Part shown: piece by piece, positions 2,545 through 32,538 of the stretch
Position numbering within the stretch: position 1 is the first letter of the stretch
Layout: every line of letters starts with the position of its first letter
NCBI GenBank assembly: GCA_903824935.1
Contig: CAIJYT010000042.1
Span: 1-32,538 of the forward strand
Origin: an uncultured Bacteroidales bacterium
GTDB lineage: Bacteria > Bacteroidota > Bacteroidia > Bacteroidales > FEN-979
DNA length: 32,538 bases
Direction: 5' to 3'
Program-made: the position numbers and the translations under genes
The notes under the pieces: generated by a model
The model's database searches: none
The model's input: the letters and a program-made list of their open reading frames with translations, nothing else
Told to the model about the DNA's origin: nothing

Positions 2545-4830
2545 TTACGGTTTTACATAAATATTTGTTGCATCCCTGTATCCTGCAAGGTTCTTATACC
2601 AGTCGGGATATTGAACTCCTCCCGATTCGGCCCAGGTGCCGAAATGAAGATGGCCGCTGAGGATCTGAACTCGTTCCCAGGTATAGTCAAATTTTACAGG
2701 AATATTGATACCCCATGGGAGGTTGGTTGACGATTTGTAATATCTTCCCGATGCAGGATCAGAGTTGTCATTGGCGGTTCCGAATAATGATCGGTCAGCC
2801 AGGGCTGTTGGTACGCGGTCGGGTAAATGAATTTCAACTGGCCTGCTCATGTCTTTTATCAGGAAAGGATTATAGGGTGGAGTTCCAACCGCCGATTGCG
2901 ACTGGGGGGTTGCAAAATGAAGGTTCACGAAAACTGTATCTGAAATACCATAAGGAACGTCCTTTAAAGTATTATACAGACCTGTACTTCCTGCCTGGGC
3001 AACATTGGTCCAGTTGTCGAAAACAATGACCACTGCCTGGGGCTGGTTGTTTTCAACACCATTCGCAGCAAGGCTGATATAATTATTCCTTAAGGTGTTG
3101 GCAGGCGTTAGCGTTACAGACTGAACCGCTGCAGCGGCCACGCCATCAAGCTGGAAACCGAAACCGTTACGCAGAGTTGCACCTGCTGCCCTGAGATAGA
3201 ACTTAGGTTTCAGGTCCACAACCTTGTTCTGGGCATTGGTGACATACCAGTAATTATAATCTATCACCGCGTCATTCATGTCATAGTCGCCATACCCGGG
3301 CCAGAGATCTTCAAATGCCAGAGACCCGAACTGGTTCTTACCGGGATAGTAGTTGTTATACGCACGGGTTGCATCGTTGGGATAATCGTCGAGATTATCA
3401 GGCACACCGTCGCCGTCAGTATCAGTCGGGCCGGGATTATTACCTATGCCATCGGGATTACAATCTCCGGTTGGAATATAATTCTGAATATTGGCCCAGC
3501 TGACGAGAGTAGCGCCGTTGATGAAATTGGAAGGCCCCCCGTTACTGATTGTCCCGCTCTGGGTTGCAAATTCAATCGGGCCATTCACCTTGGGACCATT
3601 GATGGTAGCAGTTGTGGTCTTGACGGAACTCTTACTGCCGGAACCGATAAATCCCCCGTTCAGCATGATGTTCAGGGCAACCACCTCCGACTGGTTCTGC
3701 AGTTTAATACTGCTGGCATTTATATTGAGAGTCTGGTAAATCTTAAGATACCCGTTGTTCATGGTAAAATTCGCAGTATTGCTGTTGAGGGTCTGATGAA
3801 CAATGAATTTACAGTCATTCTCCACCACACAGTTGCCATTCAAATTAACGCTTTGCTGCACTTCAATGGTGCCGGTATTCGTAAAATCATGATTGGCATT
3901 AAAAGACTGACTGATATTCAGGGTCCCCGCATTTGCAAGCGTGCTTCCTCCATTGATATTATAATCGCCGTTCACAGAGATCGTCCCGAAATTGACCACG
4001 GGACCATCCGGCGAAAAAGTCGCTCCAATGGTGCAATCCGGAGAATAGTTGGTAAGGTTTGACCCTGCTGTGTTCATATTGAATCCGCCGTTAAAATGTG
4101 CATGAGTACTGGGATATAACGTTATCCCGGCATTCCCGTCCATACTGAAGGAATTGCTGACGTTAAGTATGCCTCCTGATGTAACAATGATAGCCGTGTT
4201 TGTACCTCCAAAACTGTTAATGCTGCTGATGTTTGCAGTAGCCCCGCATATCTTTAGAGTCCCTCCCCCATTCCAGAATTCAAAATTTACCGTACCACTG
4301 AAATTGCTGGTTATACAGTAAGTCTTACCCCCGTTAATTGTCACGCTGTTCCCTGTAACAGAAACATCACAACCGCTGGAACAACTGGGTTCGTTAACAC
4401 TCCCGCCGCTTTTGATCCCCGACTTCGAAGAAGAAAAGGTATAGCTGATATTGTCCGAAACATTCACTTCGGCCTGCTGGGTTGATCCGTTCCCTGAAGT
4501 TACAAGCAGGTAAATTTTTGTGAGTGCGGTAGGCACCTTCAATTTTGTATCAAACGGGAAGTTATAGCCGGCAGATCCCGATACAAGAAGGTTCCCTCCC
4601 TGCAGCGGGTCATTATCATAAACTAAGATCCTTGAAAGCATCCCGACCTGTGAAGCAAAATCCACGGCAACATCCAGATGGACCTCCCTGCTGCTCTCCC
4701 AGTTGAAGGACGCTGGAACCTTAAGGTTAAAAATATTTACAGGAGCCTGCGAATCAGAATTGTTCTTCCTGCATGACGACAGGATTGCCAGGAATGTAAA
4801 GAGAAACAGCAGAAGTTTAACGGATTTCAT
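2545..4830 (-). CDS. LruC-domain surface lipoprotein
   Basis: The 761-residue product begins with a lipoprotein signal peptide ending in the lipobox ILSSC (Cys20), so it is probably lipid-anchored. Residues from about 150 to 430 are a low-complexity, Asn/Gly/Thr-rich series of short beta strands resembling a beta-solenoid. A Ca-binding thrombospondin-type loop (DTDGDGVPDNLDDYPND) follows. Then comes the LruC domain, recognised from YYPGKNQFGSLAFEDLWPG and GDYDMNDAVIDY. LruC-domain proteins are common, poorly characterised surface proteins of Bacteroidota. A promoter with good spacing lies upstream. The ligand or partner is unknown. Confidence 0.85.
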   Translation of the reverse strand: MKSVKLLLFLFTFLAILSSCRKNNSDSQAPVNIFNLKVPASFNWESSREVHLDVAVDFASQVGMLSRILVYDNDPLQGGNLLVSGSAGYNFPFDTKLKVPTALTKIYLLVTSGNGSTQQAEVNVSDNISYTFSSSKSGIKSGGSVNEPSCSSGCDVSVTGNSVTINGGKTYCITSNFSGTVNFEFWNGGGTLKICGATANISSINSFGGTNTAIIVTSGGILNVSNSFSMDGNAGITLYPSTHAHFNGGFNMNTAGSNLTNYSPDCTIGATFSPDGPVVNFGTISVNGDYNINGGSTLANAGTLNISQSFNANHDFTNTGTIEVQQSVNLNGNCVVENDCKFIVHQTLNSNTANFTMNNGYLKIYQTLNINASSIKLQNQSEVVALNIMLNGGFIGSGSKSSVKTTTATINGPKVNGPIEFATQSGTISNGGPSNFINGATLVSWANIQNYIPTGDCNPDGIGNNPGPTDTDGDGVPDNLDDYPNDATRAYNNYYPGKNQFGSLAFEDLWPGYGDYDMNDAVIDYNYWYVTNAQNKVVDLKPKFYLRAAGATLRNGFGFQLDGVAAAAVQSVTLTPANTLRNNYISLAANGVENNQPQAVVIVFDNWTNVAQAGSTGLYNTLKDVPYGISDTVFVNLHFATPQSQSAVGTPPYNPFLIKDMSRPVEIHLPDRVPTALADRSLFGTANDNSDPASGRYYKSSTNLPWGINIPVKFDYTWERVQILSGHLHFGTWAESGGVQYPDWYKNLAGYRDATNIYVKP

Positions 4831-21811: not shown

Positions 21812-21843
21812 TTGAAACACCCTGTTGCATTGACTTACTTTTG
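21812..21843 (+). promoter_or_regulatory. Promoter of the first DUF4402 gene
   Basis: TTG (21812-21814) and a perfect TAnnTTTG box, TACTTTTG (21836-21843), are 21 bp apart. The leader would be about 64 nt. Confidence 0.5.
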
Positions 21844-21911: not shown

Positions 21912-22424
21912 ATGAAAACACAGATCAGATCCTTCGCCCTCGCATTAATTCTGATTGGACTTTCGGCCAGCTTGTTTGCCCAGGTTTCATCAACCAGTGC
22001 TGCTTCAGCCACTATTGTAACACCAATCACCATCGCAAAAACCGCCGACATCAGCTTCGGTAATGTTGCTATCAATGCAACTGCAGGTACAGTTTTATTA
22101 TCAACTGCAGGAACCCGCACATCGACAGGTGGAGTCACCCTGCCTGCTGTCGCAGGAACAGTGACAGCTGCATCATTTAATGTTACAGGTGCTGCCAATT
22201 ACACCTATTCAATAACTCTACCGGGAACTGCCACCACCCTAACCAGCGGAGCAAACAGCATGACGGCAGGTACCTTCATCAGCAACCCCGCCACAACCGG
22301 CACGCTTAGCGGAACCGGCACCCAGACTCTTAAGGTCGGTGCAACCTTGAATGTAAGTGCATCCCAGGCTGCAGGATCATATACCTCGCCCACTCCGTTC
22401 ACCGTTACAGTAAATTATAATTAA
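21912..22424 (+). CDS. DUF4402 secreted pilin-like protein 1
   Basis: The 170-residue protein has a signal peptide ending at LFAQ (about residue 24). The mature part is Thr/Ser/Ala-rich, Cys-free and beta-rich, with the DUF4402 pattern ITIAKTADISFGNVAI near the start and LKVGATLNVSASQAAGSY then FTVTVNYN at the end. DUF4402 proteins are small Ig-like beta-sandwich candidates whose function is not established. With a PapD-like chaperone and an usher-like protein nearby, it is probably a fibre subunit. The strong upstream promoter and separate transcription suggest it could be the most abundant subunit. The subunit role is inferred from context. Confidence 0.8.
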   Translation: MKTQIRSFALALILIGLSASLFAQVSSTSAASATIVTPITIAKTADISFGNVAINATAGTVLLSTAGTRTSTGGVTLPAVAGTVTAASFNVTGAANYTYSITLPGTATTLTSGANSMTAGTFISNPATTGTLSGTGTQTLKVGATLNVSASQAAGSYTSPTPFTVTVNYN

Positions 22425-22498
22425 TTGCCCGTCAGGAAGTAACGAACTTCGTTCTTTTGATAATAATGGGATTACTGGCAAATCGAACAAAAATTTAG

Positions 22499-22506
22499 TA
22501 TATTTG
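22499..22506 (+). promoter_or_regulatory. -7 box before the second DUF4402 gene
   Basis: TATATTTG matches TAnnTTTG exactly, 49 bp before the ATG. No clear TTG lies at the expected -33 distance. Confidence 0.4.
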
Positions 22507-22555
22507 CCTAAGTTGAGTGGAATTTTTAAGCCCTCACGTTGCTAATCTTTTTAAA

Positions 22556-23077
22556 ATGAAAACATTTACCTTTCAGGTTATAGTTCTTGCAGTTGTTTCT
22601 TTTTTAGCCATGAATAAGCTGCAAGCCCAGGTCAGGGTCACAGGACATGTTTCAGCCGAAGTTATTACATCTCTTGCAGCAATGGAAACCGCCCAGCTAA
22701 ATTTCGGACGTTTTGCCCCTCAATCAGCCGGGGGTCAGGTAACGATCACACCGCAGGGGACACAATCAGCCACGGGAACTATTGCCCTGGGCTCAGGAAC
22801 TCACAATGCCGCCAGTTTCTATATCAGCGGCGAAAGCGGCGCCCTTTTTTCAATAACATTGCCCAACGGGCCGGTAACCCTCACTAATACTACGAATTCA
22901 AAAACAATGGTTGTCACGAACTGGATATCTTTACCTTCCCAGGGAATGGGAATTGTTATTCCCGACAGAGGATCCCAGGTTGTTTTAGTTGGCGCATCAC
23001 TCGTTGCCGGCACAAACAATGATAATCCTGTCGGTATTTATACTGGGACCTACTCAATAACATTCAGCTATAATTAA
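22556..23077 (+). CDS. DUF4402 secreted pilin-like protein 2
   Basis: The 173-residue protein has a signal peptide ending at LQAQ (about residue 25), then LNFGRFAPQSAGG and a C-terminal block VVLVGASLVAG with GIYTGTYSITFSYN. The end aligns by eye with the other two DUF4402-like proteins in the locus. It has no Cys. A longer frame begins upstream at 22517, but that start would bury the signal peptide behind 13 unrelated residues, so ATG 22556 is preferred. Probable fibre subunit or tip/minor pilin; the role is inferred. Confidence 0.8.
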   Translation: MKTFTFQVIVLAVVSFLAMNKLQAQVRVTGHVSAEVITSLAAMETAQLNFGRFAPQSAGGQVTITPQGTQSATGTIALGSGTHNAASFYISGESGALFSITLPNGPVTLTNTTNSKTMVVTNWISLPSQGMGIVIPDRGSQVVLVGASLVAGTNNDNPVGIYTGTYSITFSYN

Positions 23078-23190
23078 CGGGGTAGATTTGCTGAATAGCT
23101 TTGAGGATGACCACGATACACATCCCAAAGGTGTTCACAACAATTTAATAACTATTTTGAGGTATGATCACAAACAGCTTCTTTTCGCTT

Positions 23191-23198
23191 TAGGTTTG
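23191..23198 (+). promoter_or_regulatory. -7 box before the chaperone gene
   Basis: TAGGTTTG matches TAnnTTTG and lies 27 bp before the chaperone ATG. A -33 element at the right distance is not evident. It would drive the chaperone-adhesin-subunit-usher operon. Confidence 0.4.
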
Positions 23199-23225
23199 TA
23201 TACATTTTAACCAAAATCACCTCTT

Positions 23226-24107
23226 ATGCATATTTTAAGTTTCAAACAGATATCGTTCAGGTTCAAAACGATAGCATATTTTTTTATGATTGTCTCAGGG
23301 CTGGCAGTTTCCCTGTTCGATTCATCCTCCCTATTAATGGCCCAGGGTAATTTATTACTTACTCCCCGAAGAATCGTTTTTGAAGGTGCTAAAAAATCGA
23401 TGGAACTTAACCTGGCCAACACCGGGACCGATACAGCCAAATATGTAATTTCAATAATCAGGATCCGGATGACAGATGACGGAGCGTTCGAAACCATTAC
23501 CGAACCCGATTCCGGACAATTATTTGCCGATCCTTACCTGCGTTTCTTTCCCCGCACCGTTTCCCTCGGTCCGAATGAAGCCCAGGTAGTTAAAATCCAG
23601 CTTACCAAGACAACCGACCTCGTCCCGGGTGAATACCGTTCACACGTATACTTCAGGGCAGTTCCGAATTTAAAACCTTTGGGAGAAGAAGAAGCTCCCA
23701 AGGATACAACAACTATCTCAGTAAAGCTTACCCCCGTTTTTGGTATTACAATCCCTGTAATCATCCGCGTTGGCGAATCCACCACCAAAGTCAGTCTTTC
23801 GAATCTTGCCCTCGAAATGGTTAACGACACAACCCCGAGATTAAAACTGACATTTAACCGTACGGGTAATTTTTCAGTGTATGGTGATGTCATTGTAAAT
23901 TATACTTCACCTAATGGGAAGACCACCCAGGTCGGGATGATAAAAGGGCTTGCTGTTTATTCACCTAACAAACTCAGAAATTTCCAGTTTGACCTGAATA
24001 AAACTGGCGAGGTCAATTATCATGCAGGAAAATTATACGTTGAATTTTCTACTCAGGCAGAGCCAAAAGCTGTGAAGCTTGCCGATGCCGAGTTGATTTT
24101 ACACTAA
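23226..24107 (+). CDS. PapD-like periplasmic fibre-assembly chaperone
   Basis: The 293-residue protein has a long signal peptide (about 40 residues, ending SLLMAQ). Two Ig-like domains follow. The first begins LLLTPRRIVFEGAKKSMELNLANTG, as in pilus chaperones where an Arg early in strand A1 anchors the subunit C-terminus. SLGPNEAQVVKIQLTK and PGEYRSHVYFRAVP then match the edge strands of PapD-type domains. The second domain starts near residue 165 and is divergent. The canonical second basic anchor (PapD Lys112) is not obvious. It would hold DUF4402 subunits in the periplasm for delivery to the usher-like protein. It is followed 28 bp later by the large surface protein, probably in one operon. 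Confidence 0.78.
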   Translation: MHILSFKQISFRFKTIAYFFMIVSGLAVSLFDSSSLLMAQGNLLLTPRRIVFEGAKKSMELNLANTGTDTAKYVISIIRIRMTDDGAFETITEPDSGQLFADPYLRFFPRTVSLGPNEAQVVKIQLTKTTDLVPGEYRSHVYFRAVPNLKPLGEEEAPKDTTTISVKLTPVFGITIPVIIRVGESTTKVSLSNLALEMVNDTTPRLKLTFNRTGNFSVYGDVIVNYTSPNGKTTQVGMIKGLAVYSPNKLRNFQFDLNKTGEVNYHAGKLYVEFSTQAEPKAVKLADAELILH

Positions 24108-24135
24108 ACACCTGCAACACTTAATAAAATGACGT

Positions 24136-27100
24136 ATGAAACGGATCAGCACATTGTTATTGGTAATAACAATGGCTTTCATGATATCTGTTCAGGATGG
24201 AAATGCCCAGACTACCAAAACAGTTGGTAATACAGGCGCCAATTATTCCACATTAAAACTTGCTTTTGATGCCATCAACGCCGGAACTATTACCGGGGCA
24301 ATCACACTTCAGGTAATCGCAAATACCACCGAAACTGCCACTGCAAAACTGAATCAGAGCGGGACAGGAAGTGCAAATTACACATCGGTGAATATTTATC
24401 CCATGGCAACAGGCCTCACAATCACCGGAAACCTGGCCTTGCCTCTCATCGATTTCAGTGGTGCTGATTATGTCACCATTGACGGAAGGGTAAATGCCAC
24501 CGGATCTGCCATAAGCCTTACTGTTTCCAATACCAGTGCATCCGCGACCGCCGGTACATCCACAATACGTTTCATCAACGACGCAAGCAATAACGTGATT
24601 AAGTATTGTACAATTAAGGGTTCAACAACAGCCGCCGCTTCAGGTATCATTTTTTTCAGCACAACTACAGGAACAACGGGAAACGACGGGAATACAATAT
24701 CCAATAACAATATAACCAATTCGGCTGATGCCAGCAGGCCGCTGAATGCCATTTATTCATCGGGGACCGCTGCATATACCAACAGCGGTGATATAATCAG
24801 CAACAATAATATTTATGATTTTCTAAACAAGGCAACAGCTTCTTTTGGGATAAATATAAACGCCAACAATACCACCTGGACCATTACCGGCAATAGCTTT
24901 TATGAAACAACTGCATTTGCTGCCACAGGGGCAGTTGCCTTTAATGTGTTGCAAATTATTTGCACAGGGACCGGCTTTACTGTGAGCGGCAACTATATTG
25001 GTGGGAAGGCTGCGCTATGCGGAGGTGCTGCATGGACTAAAACCGGCCAGAATACTGCTTTCACCGGGATCAATCTGAGTGTTGGAACAGGTACGGCAAG
25101 CAATGTCCAGAATAATACCATCCAGAACATTTCCTGGACCAACACAGGCTCTGCAACATGGATGGGAATAGACATTGAAGCCGGAGATGTAAACGTGGGT
25201 ACAACGGGCGGGAATGTAGTCGGTTCAGCAACCGGTACTGGTTCGGTTGTTGTAACCGCCGCAGCAACAGCAGCGGTCGTGGATGGTATTGATATTACCA
25301 GTACTGGAATAGTAGTAATCCAGAACAATATTATCGGATCAATCACCGCGGCCAATACATCCACATCGGCAAGTAATTTTTATGGAATAAATAAGACAGC
25401 AGTAGCAGGAACCACAACAATAAGTAATAATACCATCGGAAGCACAACCACTGCCAATAGCATCAGCGCCAGCTCGGCCAGTACCACTTCTGCGAACGCC
25501 CAGAGTGTTTACGGGATCTATAGCGGAGGTACCGGTACTATCAATATAACCGGCAATACCATTGCCAATCTGCAAAATGCGACAACCAATACAACCACTG
25601 GCACAGCAGGGCTTATCAACGGTATTGCGTCAGTGAACGGCACCAATACCATCACCAACAATACGATCTTCAATTTATCCATTGCCAATGCAAATACTTC
25701 CGCAACAAACACAGCCTCAGTATGCGGAATAGCCCTTAGCACAGCCACCTTGCGGACGGTTACTTTGAATACCATTTATAATTTATCCAACTCCTTTGCA
25801 TCATTTGCCGGTTATATTTTCGGTATCTATTTCACCGGCGGGTCCGGAGTAAACAGCCTCAATGGAAATCTGGTCTCTAACTTGTCGGTGACCGGCGCCA
25901 GCTCCGGGACTGCCAACGTAATCGGCCTGAATTTTAACGCTGGGACAGGTGCCAACGTGGTCTCAGGGAATTTTATATATAGCCTTTCGGTAACGGGTTC
26001 TTCTACTTCTGCTTCTATGTATGGGATCAGGATTGTAACAGGAGTTGCCACCTACTCCAACAATATTATTAGTTTGGGGGGGAATACTTCGACAACTGTT
26101 TTCGGGATATATGATGCAGCAGCAGCCTCCCAGACATGCTATCTTTATTTCAACACGGTGTATATCGGGGGAAGCCTGGCTTCAGGGGCAACCAATAAAT
26201 CATACTGTCTATACAGCAACGCATCTTCAAACACCCGGGACTACAGGAACAACATCTTTATGAATGCCCGTTCGACTGTTAGCGGGGCAAGCAAGCATTA
26301 TGCAGCTTATTTCAACTACGCCGTTAGCACCAACCTGACACTGGGATATAATGATTATTTTATATCAGGTACAGGCGGGGTTTTGGGTTATTACGGAGCT
26401 GCGGATAAAACCTCCCTACCTATCGTAAGCGGGCTGGATGGTAGCAGCCAGGCAATAAGCCCTGTTTTTGCCAGCCCCGGGGGAACAACCGCGGTAAGCT
26501 ATTATCCGTCGGCATCATTGACAGGGGTTTCAGGTACAGGTATCCTACTGGATTATTCAGGGATCACCAGGGGGTCGCCTCCGAAGATGGGCGCCCTGGA
26601 AAGCAGTAATTATGTCTGGCAGGGTACCAACAGCACAAATTTTGGAAACCCGGATAACTGGACCGGAAGCGCGGTTCCCCCCGACGGTTCCAGCATTGCT
26701 TTTTCAGCTGCTCCTTCCAATCATTGCTTCCTGGATCAGAACAGATCGCTCAGCAATATTATTAATGTCCAGGCAGCGAAAGATTTTGTAACGAATGGAT
26801 ATCAGCTTACAATAACAGGAAGTCTTTCATTTACGAACGGTGCGCAGATAGATGCCACCTCTGCATCGTCGGTTGTGGTATTTGCCGGCTCAGGCTCTCA
26901 GAGCATACCTTCAGGTGCATTTCTCAATAATTCAGTCCAGGCCCTGACTATCAGCAACAGTTCCGGCGTAATACTGAACGGGGACCTGAGCGTGGAACAA
27001 ACTCTGACACTTGCCGGCGGAGCTTTCTCGGTCGGGGCAAACAATTTGACTATCAACGGTGCGATCAGTACCACTTCCGGAACATTGCTGGGAGGAAGTT

Positions 27101-28668
27101 CTTCAAATATAGTTGTCGGAGGCAGCGGCACCGTTACAACCTTGCCAGCGGTTTCCCTAAACAACCTCACCCTGAACCGTGCCAATGGCTTAAACCTGGG
27201 AGGCGCCGTCGGCGTGGCAGGAATTCTTTTAATAAGTAACGGAACACTGACTACGGGAGGATATCTTACCCTTCTCTCATCTGCTTCACAAACTGCGTTG
27301 ATCGATGGCAGCGGTGCCGGCCAGGTCTCCGGTAATGTTACAGTTCAAAGGTATATCGCCACTGCATACGGTTATAACTATTATAGCATTCCATTCCAGT
27401 CGGGTACGGTCGGTCAGTTTTCAGGTTTTGTAAACCTTTCGGCCACTTTCCCTGCTTTCTACCGTTACGACGAAAACCAGCAATCCAATGGATGGATAAG
27501 CTATACTTCTTCCTCAAACTCCCTTGCACCCATGCAAGGATATGCAGCAAACCTGGGAAACTCAGGGTCGGCCGTTACGGTTTCACTGACCGGGGCCGTG
27601 AATAACGGCACACAAACCGCCCCTACCCTCTATAATCACAACTACCCGTATACTCTTGGATTCAACCTCGTGGGGAACCCTTATCCTTCCCCAATCAACT
27701 GGACTGCAGGCAGCGGATGGACCAAAACGAACATCGATAATGCCATATATTATTTTGATTCCAGTGATACCAACCAGTATTACGGAACATACAGCAGCTA
27801 TGTCAATGGGGTTTCAAGCAACGGCATTGCAAACAATATCATCCCGGCCATGCAGGGATTCTTCATCCATGTGTCAAATGGCACCTATCCTGTTGCCGGA
27901 ACCCTGGTTTTTAATAACAGCGTAAGGATCAACAATCTTAATCCTGTTTTTCATAAACCGGAGGAAGGTGACGCCAGGCCCCTGGTGCGTCTCTCTGCCG
28001 GTTTCAGCAATCAAAAGTCCATGCAGGACCACGTCGTGGTCTATTTTGAAAATACAGCATCGCCGGCTTTCGATAACAACCTCGATGCACTGAAGCTGAT
28101 GAACACAAGTGATCTTGTTCCGAATTTATATGCTGTTTCAACAGATGCGGAACGGCTTTCGATCAGTGCAATACCAAGCCCTCATGACAGCATAACTGAA
28201 ATTCCTCTCGGGCTGGATTTAGCTCATGACGGGCAAATCAGCTTTAATGCCTCTTACACGGAACTTATACCTGCAGAATTTTACATCTATCTGCTCGACA
28301 GGCATACAGGAATATATCATGATCTGAAGGCCAGTCCTGAGTTCAGTATTTATCTGTTATCCGGTTCCTACGGCAACCGCTTTTTGCTGGTTTTCAGCCA
28401 TACAGTCTTAACTGATATCCCTGTTCCGGGTTCAGGATTTTCAGTATACAGTTCCGGAGGAATGCTTACCGTAGACCTTAATCTTTCTTCGGATACGGGG
28501 GGCGATATTATTATTTATGATCTTCTCGGCAGGAGTCTATTACAAAGGAACCTGAGAAGAAACGGCACTTATAAGATTGACATCGGCTTCAGCAGCGGAG
28601 TCTATATTGTACGTTTGTCATCAGATTCGGGGGTCCAGTCAAAAAAAGTCTATATATCCATGCTATGA
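24136..28668 (+). CDS. Giant beta-helix surface protein with T9SS sorting domain
   Basis: The 1510-residue protein has a signal peptide (residues 1-24, ending GNAQ). Residues about 30-830 are Asn/Thr/Ser-rich right-handed parallel beta-helix repeats with recurring ITGN, ISNN and NNTI turns. Residues about 835-1070 are a second beta-rich region. The segment with GYNYYSIPFQSG and NLVGNPYPSPINW (about 1070-1270) is widespread in Bacteroidota surface proteins. The last 75 residues (from about SGFSVYSSGG) form a type A T9SS sorting domain with IIYDLLGRSLLQRNL and SGVYIVRLSS. It should be exported through the T9SS and anchored or released at the surface, likely as an adhesin. Its stop overlaps the next start by ATGA, so it is locked into the chaperone-usher-like operon. 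Confidence 0.85.
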   Translation: MKRISTLLLVITMAFMISVQDGNAQTTKTVGNTGANYSTLKLAFDAINAGTITGAITLQVIANTTETATAKLNQSGTGSANYTSVNIYPMATGLTITGNLALPLIDFSGADYVTIDGRVNATGSAISLTVSNTSASATAGTSTIRFINDASNNVIKYCTIKGSTTAAASGIIFFSTTTGTTGNDGNTISNNNITNSADASRPLNAIYSSGTAAYTNSGDIISNNNIYDFLNKATASFGININANNTTWTITGNSFYETTAFAATGAVAFNVLQIICTGTGFTVSGNYIGGKAALCGGAAWTKTGQNTAFTGINLSVGTGTASNVQNNTIQNISWTNTGSATWMGIDIEAGDVNVGTTGGNVVGSATGTGSVVVTAAATAAVVDGIDITSTGIVVIQNNIIGSITAANTSTSASNFYGINKTAVAGTTTISNNTIGSTTTANSISASSASTTSANAQSVYGIYSGGTGTINITGNTIANLQNATTNTTTGTAGLINGIASVNGTNTITNNTIFNLSIANANTSATNTASVCGIALSTATLRTVTLNTIYNLSNSFASFAGYIFGIYFTGGSGVNSLNGNLVSNLSVTGASSGTANVIGLNFNAGTGANVVSGNFIYSLSVTGSSTSASMYGIRIVTGVATYSNNIISLGGNTSTTVFGIYDAAAASQTCYLYFNTVYIGGSLASGATNKSYCLYSNASSNTRDYRNNIFMNARSTVSGASKHYAAYFNYAVSTNLTLGYNDYFISGTGGVLGYYGAADKTSLPIVSGLDGSSQAISPVFASPGGTTAVSYYPSASLTGVSGTGILLDYSGITRGSPPKMGALESSNYVWQGTNSTNFGNPDNWTGSAVPPDGSSIAFSAAPSNHCFLDQNRSLSNIINVQAAKDFVTNGYQLTITGSLSFTNGAQIDATSASSVVVFAGSGSQSIPSGAFLNNSVQALTISNSSGVILNGDLSVEQTLTLAGGAFSVGANNLTINGAISTTSGTLLGGSSSNIVVGGSGTVTTLPAVSLNNLTLNRANGLNLGGAVGVAGILLISNGTLTTGGYLTLLSSASQTALIDGSGAGQVSGNVTVQRYIATAYGYNYYSIPFQSGTVGQFSGFVNLSATFPAFYRYDENQQSNGWISYTSSSNSLAPMQGYAANLGNSGSAVTVSLTGAVNNGTQTAPTLYNHNYPYTLGFNLVGNPYPSPINWTAGSGWTKTNIDNAIYYFDSSDTNQYYGTYSSYVNGVSSNGIANNIIPAMQGFFIHVSNGTYPVAGTLVFNNSVRINNLNPVFHKPEEGDARPLVRLSAGFSNQKSMQDHVVVYFENTASPAFDNNLDALKLMNTSDLVPNLYAVSTDAERLSISAIPSPHDSITEIPLGLDLAHDGQISFNASYTELIPAEFYIYLLDRHTGIYHDLKASPEFSIYLLSGSYGNRFLLVFSHTVLTDIPVPGSGFSVYSSGGMLTVDLNLSSDTGGDIIIYDLLGRSLLQRNLRRNGTYKIDIGFSSGVYIVRLSSDSGVQSKKVYISML

Positions 28669-29189
28669 TCATTCCGAGAACATCATTTTTAACATGCAGG
28701 GCATTCCTTCTAATCATCAGCGGGATCATTTTATTCCTGCTGGGGCCGGTTAAAGTAACCGCCCAGCCTCAACCTCCTCGTCCAGTTAAGTTGTATACCA
28801 TCCAATCGATGAATTTCGGGGCTTTTTACCAGGGCTTTTCAGGAGGGACGGTTATTGTATATGCTAACGGCACGCGTTCCTGTGCAGGGGATGTTCATCT
28901 TCTGATGCTGGGATTCTCATTTTACCCAGCTATTTTCCAGGTTGATGCGATTGTCGGGACTATCGTTACAATAACAAACGGGGCCGACGCTATATTAACG
29001 GGGAGCAACGGAGGATCCATGACACTCCATCTCGGAGACTCGTATCCTGTCTCACCTTTCATAACCTCTATCGCCCCTTCGGGACGAACGTCGGTAAGCG
29101 TGGGAGGCATACTTACCGTGGGCAACCCCGGGGCTAATCCGGTGGGTGCCTACAGCGGTACGTTTTCGGTTACTTTCAATCAGCAATAA
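28665..29189 (+). CDS. DUF4402-like secreted subunit 3
   Basis: The 174-residue protein has an N-terminal hydrophobic signal segment ending VTAQ (about residue 34). The mature part contains IQSMNFGAFYQGFSGGTV and ends VSVGGILTVGNPGANPVG then YSGTFSVTFNQQ, the same C-terminal pattern as the two upstream DUF4402 proteins. A single Cys occurs in the mature part (RSCAG). The ATGA overlap with the adhesin gene indicates translational coupling, and the usher gene follows by 26 bp. It may be the fibre tip or an adaptor subunit; the DUF4402 call is by pattern similarity and less secure than for its paralogues. Confidence 0.72.
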   Translation: MIIPRTSFLTCRAFLLIISGIILFLLGPVKVTAQPQPPRPVKLYTIQSMNFGAFYQGFSGGTVIVYANGTRSCAGDVHLLMLGFSFYPAIFQVDAIVGTIVTITNGADAILTGSNGGSMTLHLGDSYPVSPFITSIAPSGRTSVSVGGILTVGNPGANPVGAYSGTFSVTFNQQ

Positions 29190-29203
29190 TAACCGGATTA
29201 AAA

Positions 29204-29210
29204 AGGAAAG
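29204..29210 (+). promoter_or_regulatory. Shine-Dalgarno-like site supporting a TTG start
   Basis: AGGAAAG ends 5 nt before the TTG at 29216. Shine-Dalgarno sequences are rare in this phylum, so its presence here helps choose TTG as the start of a gene with no suitable in-frame ATG near its signal peptide. Confidence 0.5.
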
Positions 29211-29215
29211 ATACC

Positions 29216-32200
29216 TTGAGAAGCAAAAGACAACACAACTTCATCCAAGGTTATCCCCAGCTTCACCTTTGTATCTTATTATGGATTTTCCCAGCCATAC
29301 TAATTTTCAACCTGCTGATCCCGGCCCGGGCATATTCGCAGGATCAGCCGGATTACGAAGAAATTTCGGTCGGGCTTCATATTCAGCAACTTGGGAATGT
29401 TGAAATAACAGCCATTGTCAGGGAAAATAAAGCCTACCTGCCGGTGAATGTCCTTTTCGACTACCTGAAGATCAAAAATGACTGCAGCAGGGATTTTGAC
29501 ACTGTTTCAGGTTTTTTCATCACCCAGGATGCCGTTTATCTTATTGACCAGAAACATCATCGTATAACATTTCGCGAGAAGATTTTTGAACTGCAGCCGA
29601 ACGATCTAATCATTACTGAAGAGGGTGTATTTCTTGCCCTTCCTGTCTTAAGTAAGGTGTTCGGCCTAAACTGCACATTCAGTTTCAGAAACCTGATGAT
29701 CACCCTGACCACGAAAGCGGAGCTTCCGGTTATCAGGGAAATGAGACAGGAAGAGCTGCGACGGAATTTAAGATATCTCAAGGGAGAAGGGAAAGCCGAT
29801 ACGGTTCTGAAGCGGAAGCATCCGGTCTTCCATTTCGGAATGGCAGACTGGTCGGTAATTGCCACAGAGATGTTGAGAGGGCCTTATAACGTCAGGGTAA
29901 ACCTTGGGCTGGGCGGGGTTATTGCAGGAGGGGAAACGAATATCCTCCTGAATTATAGTAACGGACAGCCTTTTACCGAAAAAGATCAGTTTTACCTATG
30001 GCGGTATGCCGACAATTCTATCTCTGCATTAAGACAGATTTCGATTGGAAAGATAACTACCCAGGCGACTTCATCCATTTACTCCCCGGTAGTGGGCGCC
30101 CAGTTTACAAACACCCCAACGACCTACAGGCGTGCATTCGGCACCTACACCCTGAGTGACCATACCGAGCCTGGATGGATCGTTGAATTATATGTAAATA
30201 ACGTTTTGGTCAATTTCGTAAAGGCGGATCCTTCGGGATTGTTCACCTTCGAGGTTCCGCTTGTTTATGGGAATTCGATGGTTAAACTCAGATTTTACGG
30301 CCCATGGGGCGAAGAAAAAACCAAAGAAACAAATATCAATATTCCTTACAACTTCCTTCCGCTTCACGAACTGGAATATACAGTCAGCGGAGGTATGGTA
30401 GAGAACGGCATCCGCAGTATATATTCCCGTGCCAATCTGAATTACGGACTTGCCAAACGATTAACCGTCGGAGCCGGGGTTGAATACCTGTCATCCGTCA
30501 CCTCTGGTCCGATTATGCCATTCGCCAACCTTTCACTCAGGATCGCTTCAAGCCTGCTTATCTCTGCTGAATATACGTATGGGGTAAGATTTAAAGGCAC
30601 CCTCAACTACTCTCTTCCATCAAGTCTCCAGGTCGAACTTGATTACACCAGGTATCATCAGGGCCAGACTGCAATAAATTTCAATTACCTGGAAGAAAGG
30701 AAAGCCATTGTTTCCATGCCTGTGAGGGCTCCTCACCTCTCTTTCTTTATGCGACTGACCCTTGACCAGATCATATTACCTTCCACCAACTACACTACTG
30801 CTGAATTTGTATTGTCAGGCGCCGTTTTTGGTGTAGGCACCAACCTGACAACCTATGCGATTTTCCCCAATCCGGGTTACCCAAATGTATACAGCAACCT
30901 GTCGTTGGGTTTCAGGTTTCGCTCGGGGTTCACACTTACTCCCCAGGCACAATTTGACTATAACCAGCTGAAGTTCATCTCGGCGAAATGTGAACTTGAA
31001 AAACGCCTCTTCAAGCAGCTTTACGCCACTTTATCTTATGAACAGATCTTCGCAAGCCAGGTCTACAATATCCAGTTCGGCATCAGGTACGATTTCCCTG
31101 CAGCACATGCTGAACTGCTCGTAAAGCAGTCCAACCAGCTCACAACTCTTTTCCAGTCGGCAAGGGGTAGTCTGATTTGTGATGCAAAATCCAAATATCT
31201 TGATTTCAACAACCGTGTCAATGTTGGCCGGGGGGGCCTCGTACTTGCGCCATTCCTCGATCTTAACCAGAACGGAAAGCGTGATACAGGGGAGCCTAAG
31301 GTCGGCGGACTTACATTCAGTATCAATGGTGGCCGGATTGAAGTTGACACAAAGGATACGATAACAAGGGTCTTTGATCTTGAACCTTACGTCACATATG
31401 TCGTTGAACTGAACAGGAATAGTTTCGAAAATATTGCATGGCAGATCCGTAACCATACTTTAGCTGTGACGGTCGAGCCTAACACTTTGAAAATGATCGA
31501 CATACCTGTCACTGTAGCAGGTGAGGCCTCCGGCACGGTCTCGATGAAAAGTTCCCATGGGATCAAGGGTCAGGGACGTATTGTGGTCTGTTTTTACCGC
31601 AATGACTCCGTCATGGTTGCACGAACCATCACAGAACAGGGAGGGTTCTTCAGCTATTTAGGACTTCCCCCCGGTTCTTTTACCGTTCGAATGGATACTA
31701 TGCAGCTGGGCAAACTTCAGATGACCCCGGTTCCAGCCGGCATACCTTTTACTATTAAGAAAAGTACTGACGGAGATGTTTTGGATGGGCTTGATTTTGT
31801 GCTGCAACCGAATGAGATCAGAAAAGAGAGCAGTGTGTTTCCGGTTGAAGGACACAAGATGGTCAATCCCGATTCGGCTTCAGTGAAAAGTAAAGCAGGC
31901 CGTGCAGACTCACCTCAGCTTTTAAAAGTTAAAATGCTTCCAGTTCCCTCAGGCATACCTCTGAAATTAAAGAAAAACGCTGCAGACAATATGACGAAAA
32001 TGCCTGTAACTGCATTCCCGTCATCAATTACCGGGGAAGGCCTAAGCCAGGTTCCAGCTCCAACTCAAGCTCCCGGCAAAGTGGTTCCGGCCCAGGTTCC
32101 GGCCAAAGCTCCGGTTCAGGTTCCGGTTCAGGTTCCGGCCAAAGCGCCCGGCCAGGCTCCGTTACCGGAACAGGCGGCTCCCCGGGAAGTCAAATCAAAG

Positions 32201-32538
32201 CCCGCAGCTGTGGTAAGCAAACCTGTTCCCCTAAAGCCTGAGAATACCAGGGATACGGTTGATTTCTCTCCTGTCGTAATCAGGATAACGAAAATCAACG
32301 CTATTGCTTTTGAATATTATCAGCAGAGACAATATGCAAAAGCCATCCACCAGTTTGAACAGGCAAGGAAAATTGCAACAGCAAATACATTGAAGGTGGC
32401 TCCTGTTTACGACTCCCTCTATCACCGGTCTTACAAACTATGGCTTCTTGAACAGATCTCCCTCGGCCAGAAGCTGATCGGGGAAAACAAAACTGACTCT
32501 GCCTTAAAATTCTTTCAGATGGCTGCAGCAACTGCCCG
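29216..32538 (+). CDS. Usher-like outer-membrane protein, 3' end outside window
   Basis: One open frame of at least 1107 codons runs off the right edge. TTG 29216 is the chosen start: it precedes a long signal segment (LHLCILLWIFPAILIFNLL, ending AYSQ near residue 42) and no in-frame ATG fits. Residues about 45-200 form a beta-rich N-terminal domain. From about 202 many amphipathic strands suggest a beta-barrel. Residues about 305-372 resemble an usher middle/plug domain: GWIVELYVNNVLVNFVKADP, then GLFTFEVPLVYGNSMVKLRF and YGPWGEE. After further barrel strands come a Ca-binding-like DLNQNGKRDTGE loop (682-693) and Ig-like carboxypeptidase-regulatory-type domains, a Pro/Ala/Val-rich linker (about 945-992) and an alpha-helical TPR-like region from about 1029. 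The usher call rests on the plug pattern and gene context; identity to classical FimD is low. Confidence 0.7.
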   Translation, partial: MRSKRQHNFIQGYPQLHLCILLWIFPAILIFNLLIPARAYSQDQPDYEEISVGLHIQQLGNVEITAIVRENKAYLPVNVLFDYLKIKNDCSRDFDTVSGFFITQDAVYLIDQKHHRITFREKIFELQPNDLIITEEGVFLALPVLSKVFGLNCTFSFRNLMITLTTKAELPVIREMRQEELRRNLRYLKGEGKADTVLKRKHPVFHFGMADWSVIATEMLRGPYNVRVNLGLGGVIAGGETNILLNYSNGQPFTEKDQFYLWRYADNSISALRQISIGKITTQATSSIYSPVVGAQFTNTPTTYRRAFGTYTLSDHTEPGWIVELYVNNVLVNFVKADPSGLFTFEVPLVYGNSMVKLRFYGPWGEEKTKETNINIPYNFLPLHELEYTVSGGMVENGIRSIYSRANLNYGLAKRLTVGAGVEYLSSVTSGPIMPFANLSLRIASSLLISAEYTYGVRFKGTLNYSLPSSLQVELDYTRYHQGQTAINFNYLEERKAIVSMPVRAPHLSFFMRLTLDQIILPSTNYTTAEFVLSGAVFGVGTNLTTYAIFPNPGYPNVYSNLSLGFRFRSGFTLTPQAQFDYNQLKFISAKCELEKRLFKQLYATLSYEQIFASQVYNIQFGIRYDFPAAHAELLVKQSNQLTTLFQSARGSLICDAKSKYLDFNNRVNVGRGGLVLAPFLDLNQNGKRDTGEPKVGGLTFSINGGRIEVDTKDTITRVFDLEPYVTYVVELNRNSFENIAWQIRNHTLAVTVEPNTLKMIDIPVTVAGEASGTVSMKSSHGIKGQGRIVVCFYRNDSVMVARTITEQGGFFSYLGLPPGSFTVRMDTMQLGKLQMTPVPAGIPFTIKKSTDGDVLDGLDFVLQPNEIRKESSVFPVEGHKMVNPDSASVKSKAGRADSPQLLKVKMLPVPSGIPLKLKKNAADNMTKMPVTAFPSSITGEGLSQVPAPTQAPGKVVPAQVPAKAPVQVPVQVPAKAPGQAPLPEQAAPREVKSKPAAVVSKPVPLKPENTRDTVDFSPVVIRITKINAIAFEYYQQRQYAKAIHQFEQARKIATANTLKVAPVYDSLYHRSYKLWLLEQISLGQKLIGENKTDSALKFFQMAAATA
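32048..32162 (+). repeat. 12-bp tandem coding repeat (Gln-Val-Pro-Ala/Val)
   Basis: Units based on CAGGTTCCGGCC and CAGGTTCCGGTT alternate with CAAAGCTCCGGT-like variants. They encode the Pro/Ala/Val-rich linker between the Ig-like and helical parts of the usher-like protein. Confidence 0.7.

Follow-up and report, generated by a model that had tools for sequence, protein, structure and literature searches.

The 32,538-nt window analysed here, which is the entire contig 42 (G000:C42) of an uncultured Bacteroidales genome (3.63 Mb, 289 contigs), very probably carries a divergent chaperone-usher pathway that uses DUF4402 proteins as its subunits. Six plus-strand genes across positions 21912–32538 encode two DUF4402 proteins (D1 and D2), a chaperone-like protein, a giant protein tagged for the type IX secretion system (T9SS), a third DUF4402 protein (D3) and a large barrel protein, whose gene has lost its 3′ end at the contig end. 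An earlier note on this DNA had described this gene content and order on a single strand and had read the locus as a chaperone-usher-type system built on DUF4402 subunits; all six open reading frames (ORFs) were found in place, and the evidence on usher, subunits, chaperone and gene order agrees with that reading. Its remark that the last four genes lie less than 30 bp apart or overlap also holds, as the gaps from D1 to the usher gene are 131, 148, 28, −4 and 26 bp (the first taken from the D2 ATG at 22556), and the giant gene and D3 share four bases. At the computed level, the usher fold and homology, the pilin-like fold of DUF4402, the homology of the first chaperone domain and the conserved operon are observed; strand exchange, a tip role for D3, wall anchoring and an adhesin role are what we infer.

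The barrel protein is an usher by predicted fold and by homology. An AlphaFold model was built from its core (residues 42–870) aligned with 79 relatives (predicted local distance difference test, pLDDT, 83.5; predicted template modelling score, pTM, 0.67), and in a Foldseek comparison with the PDB, ranks 1–18 were all FimD or PapC (E 1.4e-24 to 6.4e-12), followed by SdrD at 2.3e-9 and by porins from 5e-6. Similarly, VIA gave Z 18.0–20.9 for 15 usher entries (FimD/PapC) and 14.4 for the next entry, with the widest span, model residues 143–823, taking in the barrel, the plug and the C-terminal domains. The window usher is about 12% identical to FimD. A 24-strand barrel with a small sandwich after the sixth strand is the known usher plan, and hhalign places the plug-like stretch of the window protein on FimD at about residues 293–365. 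The structure check, which had been set beforehand as a possible refutation of the usher assignment, thus yielded a predicted barrel, plug and C-terminal domains.

Profile comparisons pointed the same way. A 31-member usher profile aligned with seven Escherichia coli K-12 ushers at an hhalign probability of 96.6 (E 4.8e-10, 600 columns), which became 98.4 (E 7.5e-15) with six proteobacterial members added, while a control profile built from 12 TonB receptors of this genome reached 1.2 and 16.0, respectively. Taken alone, the two Bacteroidota usher subfamilies (21 and 10 members) gave 89.2 and 92.7. Comparisons with single K-12 ushers, with probabilities of 96.4 for YraJ, 94.9 for HtrE, 42.3 for EcpC, 38.5 for YbgQ, 3.9 for FimD, 2.7 for ElfC and 1.3 for SfmD, failed to show the nearest usher class. 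A PDB search with usher profile A2 returned chiefly SdrD and NOMO patches; the usher carries SdrD_B/CarboxypepD_reg-like patches, and CarboxypepD_reg is also weakly present in the alternative usher EcpC. Pfam Usher (PF00577) matched weakly in 2 of the 31 relatives (best 0.013), and neither TcfC nor CooC_C, which EcpC has, matched the window usher or the six proteobacterial ushers.

The gene neighbourhood is conserved. Relatives were collected in one scan of 84,980 species genomes, from which the best 80 of 366 stretches coding for usher relatives were kept, with Chitinophaga, Pedobacter, Daejeonella and Mucilaginibacter among the carriers. Among ushers of more than 600 aa whose 5′ end is complete, 78 in all, 73 were directly preceded by a same-strand DUF4402 gene. 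Of 81 ushers, 27 had a chaperone and 57 had a giant homologue in the upstream same-strand run (at most eight genes), counts that are limited by most runs stopping at the edge of the retrieved stretch. In a survey of 247 Bacteroidota genomes, in which usher matches were counted at E below 1e-10, the usher profile was found at full length in 35 genomes and as a distant or fragmentary match in 15 more; of the 79 genome matches, the 29 with E above 1e-10, which cover C-terminal stretches only, were excluded from the usher count. DUF4402 occurred in 36 genomes, every one of which belongs to the 50 usher genomes (25 with a full-length and 11 with a fragmentary match); the remaining 197 have none. 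The Fisher p for this is 2e-31 but, as the genomes are related, should not be read as if the events were independent. In all 35 DUF4402 genomes besides that of the window, usher and DUF4402 lay on one contig at a distance of 91–4689 bp. The neighbourhood elsewhere had likewise been set beforehand as a possible refutation, and DUF4402 and usher genes were found to adjoin in the surveyed relatives. Pfam Usher was above cut-off in none of the 247 genomes, with the E. coli positive control matched, and its two weak matches (G274 and G334) lie at sites that the new profile covers over nearly full length.

All three subunits exceeded the curated cut-off of 25.2 for PF14352 (DUF4402), and Pfam gave nothing else above cut-off for them, neither a fimbrillin family nor SCPU. 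The AlphaFold model of D1 (pLDDT 92.6) has no assigned strand in residues 1–18 and ends in a strand. Against the PDB, its Foldseek ranks 1–35 were all chaperone-usher subunits by entry title (best E 0.05), and such subunits made up 46 of the 50 VIA entries shown, including DraD and CsuA/B (Z 7.2 and 7.1). Because these ranks agree, the DUF4402 fold is predicted to be pilin-like despite weak individual scores. The DUF4402 profile itself found esterase D alone in the PDB, at E 1.5. Cysteine after residue 30 was absent in 94 of 121 DUF4402 ORFs, and mature D1 and D2 have none.

Two subunit classes could be told apart by motifs that were picked after the sequences had been inspected. Among the 38 upstream subunits, which precede another subunit or a chaperone gene (site found in 35), a donor-like A-x-[IV]-[IVT] motif was present in 32 of 35; the 57 usher-proximal subunits, encoded between the giant or chaperone gene and the usher (site found in 55), had it in 0 of 55 and a PPRP-type proline-rich start in 52 of 55. 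In D1, the donor-strand-like N-terminal extension spans codons 22–39 (21975–22028). Most clusters contain two or more D1/D2-type genes. A pilin without a donor strand can only be the first in a fibre, and therefore D3, as its sequence suggests, is likely the tip. The usher-adjacent subunits of one further group of loci (L085-type, described below) stand outside both classes, several with a donor-like start (VVVTGHITAEIVDA).

The first domain of the chaperone is, as judged from profile alignments, homologous to the N-terminal domain of PapD. Against ten K-12 chaperones, two chaperone subfamilies gave hhalign probabilities of 91.7 and 92.0, compared with 0.9 and 5.2 against K-12 subunits, and 95.9 was reached once proteobacterial orthologues were added. 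PapD_N was above cut-off in 3 of the 6 proteobacterial orthologues scanned and weak in 11 of 31 Bacteroidota chaperones (best 2.6e-5), and a bridged chaperone profile found CfaA, PapD and FimC in the PDB at E 0.04–0.45; a PDB search with a second-subfamily chaperone found nothing. An alignment to the E. coli Ecp chaperones (probability 28.6), ungapped from EcpB Pro60 to Arg89, paired these two residues with P109 and R138 of the window protein, and a second one from the narrower alignment A5 (probability 6.0) agreed on the proline, a gap falling ahead of the arginine. P109 and R138 probably correspond to the EcpB residues; in the PDB profile alignment, the R138 column pairs with the tyrosine-arginine of CfaA. 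In mature numbering, P70 was kept in 28 of 28 and R99 in 27 of 28 chaperones, and in a broader set the arginine was found in 28 of 37 (6/6 proteobacterial, 0/8 in the second subfamily). According to PMC4654587, nothing characterises archaic and alternative chaperones more than this arginine, which is shown there to bind the subunit C-terminus.

Several results weigh against a chaperone-usher reading. The window's chaperone and barrel proteins have no Pfam match above cut-off, neither Usher nor PapD_N; a PDB search with chaperone profile A1 returned nothing pilus-related, and in the bridged search a WxL-interacting protein (0.003) outranked CfaA, PapD and FimC. No Foldseek match of D1 reached E 0.001, its best VIA Z of 7.5 lies in a range the tool calls common, and hhalign of DUF4402 against 15 K-12 subunits gave a probability of 4.6. 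The usher N-terminal domain, which is the chaperone-binding part in known systems, did not align to known usher N-terminal domains (VIA alignments start at 143–167, and hhalign behaves likewise). FimD as a single sequence scored 3.9, and the narrower usher alignment A4 reached a probability of only 11.4 against K-12 ushers, probably because it is too narrow. Finally, 14 of the 27 upstream runs that end inside the retrieved DNA lack a recognised chaperone, and 14 of the 50 genomes with an usher match lack a DUF4402 match. PDB sequence searches with the single usher and the single chaperone found no pilus protein. The labels 'PapD-like' and 'usher' of the earlier note are backed by structure, profiles and relatives, without a Pfam or PDB sequence match of the window's own proteins.

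Some evidence would also fit a very divergent archaic system (sigma, Csu/CupE) instead of a separate branch. We consider this rather unlikely: the chaperone appears to keep the archaic/alternative arginine (EcpB and CfaA alignments; 27/28) and CsuA/B is among the best structural neighbours of D1, but the subunits are DUF4402 proteins without an SCPU match, most DUF4402 ORFs (94/121) have no cysteine after residue 30, unlike archaic pilins, the usher bears SdrD_B/CarboxypepD_reg-like patches (the second found weakly in the alternative EcpC too), and the arginine is missing from all 8 chaperones of one subfamily. The SCPU family PF05229 was likewise found in 0 of 247 genomes, though its positive control gave no match either. 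A secretion route for non-polymeric DUF4402, in which subunits leave singly through the barrel without building a fibre, is very improbable. It would account for D3 having no donor-like extension and for no fibre having been observed so far; it leaves unexplained the donor-like extension kept by D1/D2-type genes (32/35) and the usual several subunit copies per cluster, with two more D1-like fragments in this genome, and the giant protein does not need the usher, as it has an export tag of its own and the genome encodes SprA. That an unrelated large barrel (TonB receptor, porin or LptD) lies beside fimbrial-like genes by chance is hardly credible, as porins and LptD appear lower in the Foldseek list, behind ushers at E 1e-24 versus 5e-6 for the first porin, with VIA at 18–21 versus 14.4, the TonB control at 1.2–16 and DUF4402 adjacency in 73 of 78.

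Regarding the giant protein, which the earlier note had called T9SS-tagged, the TIGR04183 T9SS type A tail scored 35.2 bits (cut-off 23) and the Pfam tail model 23.5 (cut-off 27). The tail was present in 20 of 22 giant proteins scanned, the window's included, and the giant alignment comprised 21 of the 25 complete homologues and the window protein. SprA is encoded in the same genome. With a sorting domain and a T9SS component in the genome, the giant protein is a predicted T9SS substrate.

The ushers frequently extend beyond their core. Among 79 usher cores of full length, 61 continue for more than 60 residues (a contig end cuts 6 of these), and SPOR matched in 44 of the 61 tails. SPOR is a peptidoglycan-binding domain, and SPOR-bearing tails are, from their sequence, probable cell-wall anchors. 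The truncated tail of the window usher had no SPOR match and a tetratricopeptide repeat (TPR_2) score of 23.3 bits (cut-off 27). In Pseudoalteromonas xiamenensis, SPOR is encoded by a gene of its own that overlaps the usher 3′ end and is followed by a TPR gene; these parts can therefore be either fused or encoded separately. At its end (32204–32536), the window tail shares 44% identity with part of a roughly 900-residue protein encoded elsewhere in the genome (G000:C81:8606–8944), and similar matches were found in all seven same-genus relatives searched; one of these proteins had TPR matches only, below cut-off.

The operon extends beyond Bacteroidota, to proteobacterial plasmids. By tblastn against 72,556 plasmid records, chaperone and usher were found together in seven, from Polaromonas (2), Sphingopyxis, Novosphingobium (2) and Pseudoalteromonas (2), four of which were also recovered with the DUF4402 query. 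Six annotated regions were analysed, and the seventh (L181), which is unannotated, was left out. The order in all six is subunit-type gene(s), chaperone, usher, with no gene between chaperone and usher and no giant gene in the retrieved flanks. Five regions have a gene annotated as DUF4402; in the sixth, from Pseudoalteromonas Bsw20308, a gene marked 'hypothetical' and without a Pfam match precedes the chaperone. The annotation calls the chaperone fimbrial once and the usher never an usher.

On the reading of the locus as a divergent chaperone-usher pathway, the DUF4402 pilins would be exported via Sec, and the chaperone would cap each subunit, lending it one strand. The usher would receive the chaperone-subunit complexes, open its plug and string the subunits together by donor-strand exchange, with the N-terminal extension of D1 or D2 inserted into the groove of the subunit before it. 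D3 has no such extension and would be the first subunit, at the fibre tip. The usher tail, with SPOR repeats in many relatives and TPR-like here, may tie the assembly platform to the cell wall, and the giant T9SS protein may be a co-expressed surface adhesin. Three features are unusual: the probable wall-binding usher tails, a T9SS-tagged operon protein and a donor-less second subunit class. A hybrid machine, with a wall-anchored usher building a DUF4402 fibre and the T9SS-exported giant adhesin attached to the donor-less D3 at the fibre tip, is a doubtful extension of this scheme; if true, two unrelated secretion systems would build one appendage.

Features of the chaperone-usher-like locus in the window, with the evidence for each assignment
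Feature	Position	Strand	Evidence
D1, DUF4402 subunit, predicted shaft pilin	21912..22424	+	PF14352 103.4 bits
D2, DUF4402 subunit with 'VRVTGHVSAEVITSL' N-terminal extension	22556..23077	+	PF14352 91.4 bits; matched by D1 hidden Markov model
PapD-like periplasmic chaperone, predicted	23226..24107	+	hhalign vs E. coli K-12 chaperones
Giant surface protein, predicted T9SS substrate, possible adhesin	24136..28668	+	TIGR04183 35.2 bits
T9SS sorting tail of giant protein	28474-28656	+	TIGR04183
D3, usher-proximal DUF4402 subunit, proline-rich N-terminus; candidate tip/initiator	28665..29189	+	PF14352 67.5 bits
Usher-like outer-membrane assembly protein	29216..32538 (ORF 29216-32536, open)	+	AlphaFold, Foldseek, VIA, hhalign
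Usher N-terminal periplasmic domain, predicted	29339..29773	+	Model residues 1-145
Usher beta-barrel, predicted; 24 strands if 251-257 counted as strand 6	29828..31183	+	Model strand list; VIA
Plug-like domain inserted after barrel strand 6	30134..30340	+	Model strands 266-334, small sandwich
Usher C-terminal periplasmic domains, predicted	31271..31825	+	VIA reaches model 822-823 vs FimD 833-834
C-terminal tail past usher core, cut by contig end	31826..32538	+	TPR_2 below cut-off

For D2, the ATG at 22556 is the more likely start than the GTG at 22517 given by the ORF list. RNA folding and promoter and terminator scans of the intergenic regions found nothing clearly over chance except at 23072–23220 (z −2.26). 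A TTG-N21-TACTTTTG arrangement at 21812–21843, ending 68 bp upstream of D1, is a possible match to the Bacteroidota promoter consensus. Elsewhere in the genome, fragments of two further D1-like DUF4402 genes lie at contig ends (G000:C141, 1–192; G000:C224, 13800–13946, minus strand); their C-terminal sequences are nearly identical, a terminator-like hairpin was seen by eye downstream of the latter, and the assembly may break at these contig ends because the subunit genes are repeated. Outside the operon, the window encodes a 761-residue DUF4842 protein (2545–4830, minus strand; 194 bits).

Among the relatives, a second usher-chaperone set, about 25% identical, was observed in L038–L043, L049 and L050. 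Upstream of the set in L038–L041, L043 and L049 lie DUF4402 genes and a homologue of the giant gene, with none of these between chaperone and usher, and all 8 chaperones of this second subfamily have F, Y or W in place of the arginine. In the L085-type loci (L085–L087, L093, L098, L099, L101, L126 and L144), DUF4402 lies directly before the usher with no recognised chaperone on the same strand, in a different, recurrent gene neighbourhood. A sigma-54 response regulator and a PAS histidine kinase stand beside the cluster in L070 (9071–11979, minus strand), and similar-sized ORFs flanking the clusters in L038–L041, L046 and L071 may regulate them.

These findings suggest a function for DUF4402, that of a chaperone-usher pilin, and offer an identity for proteins labelled 'carboxypeptidase regulatory-like domain-containing protein', as well as a possible cell-wall anchor on an usher. 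A full-length usher-profile match in 35 of 247 Bacteroidota, in none of which Pfam Usher is over cut-off, and the presence of the system in cultured genera (Chitinophaga, Pedobacter and Daejeonella) make it both recurrent and testable. Our literature search, over 5.39 million papers, found none mentioning DUF4402, and titles and abstracts pairing usher with Bacteroidota described no such system, most subscription papers and preprints lying outside the coverage; a search on SPOR domain, usher and pilus gave only two papers, both unrelated.

Compared with the classical Fim and Pap systems (FimC-FimD-FimA and PapD-PapC-PapA), the locus likewise has subunits, chaperone and usher in one operon, shares the predicted usher barrel, plug and C-terminal domains, and has a pilin-like subunit model; it differs in its DUF4402 subunits, its SPOR or TPR-like usher tail and its T9SS-tagged operon protein, and in that the window usher has no Pfam Usher match and an unmatched N-terminal domain. 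The single-domain tip subunits DraD, AfaD and SafD lack a donor extension, and D3 similarly has no donor-like extension and keeps its DUF4402 domain, whereas its gene immediately precedes the usher gene and its N-terminus is rich in proline. The usher of the locus is also like other usher-pathway components that carry an added module, the addition here being the C-terminal SPOR or TPR-like tail. With the archaic and alternative systems (Csu, CupE, ECP and CFA/I), the window family probably has the non-classical chaperone arginine in common, CsuA/B lies near D1, and EcpC shares a weak CarboxypepD_reg patch; unlike them, it shows no SCPU, TcfC or CooC_C match, and D1 and D2 have no cysteine, where archaic pilins have invariant cysteines; the carriers of archaic systems named in PMC4654587 are proteobacteria, Cyanobacteria and Deinococcus-Thermus. 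The type V fimbriae of Bacteroidota (FimA/Mfa1) are likewise surface fibres for which donor strands have also been proposed, but they differ in a step-wise maturation with protease cleavage, and the window subunits have no fimbrillin match; for Porphyromonas gingivalis, PMC5789003 states that neither a chaperone nor an usher gene had been described and that such genes are probably absent, whereas the locus described here very probably assembles its DUF4402 subunits with both.

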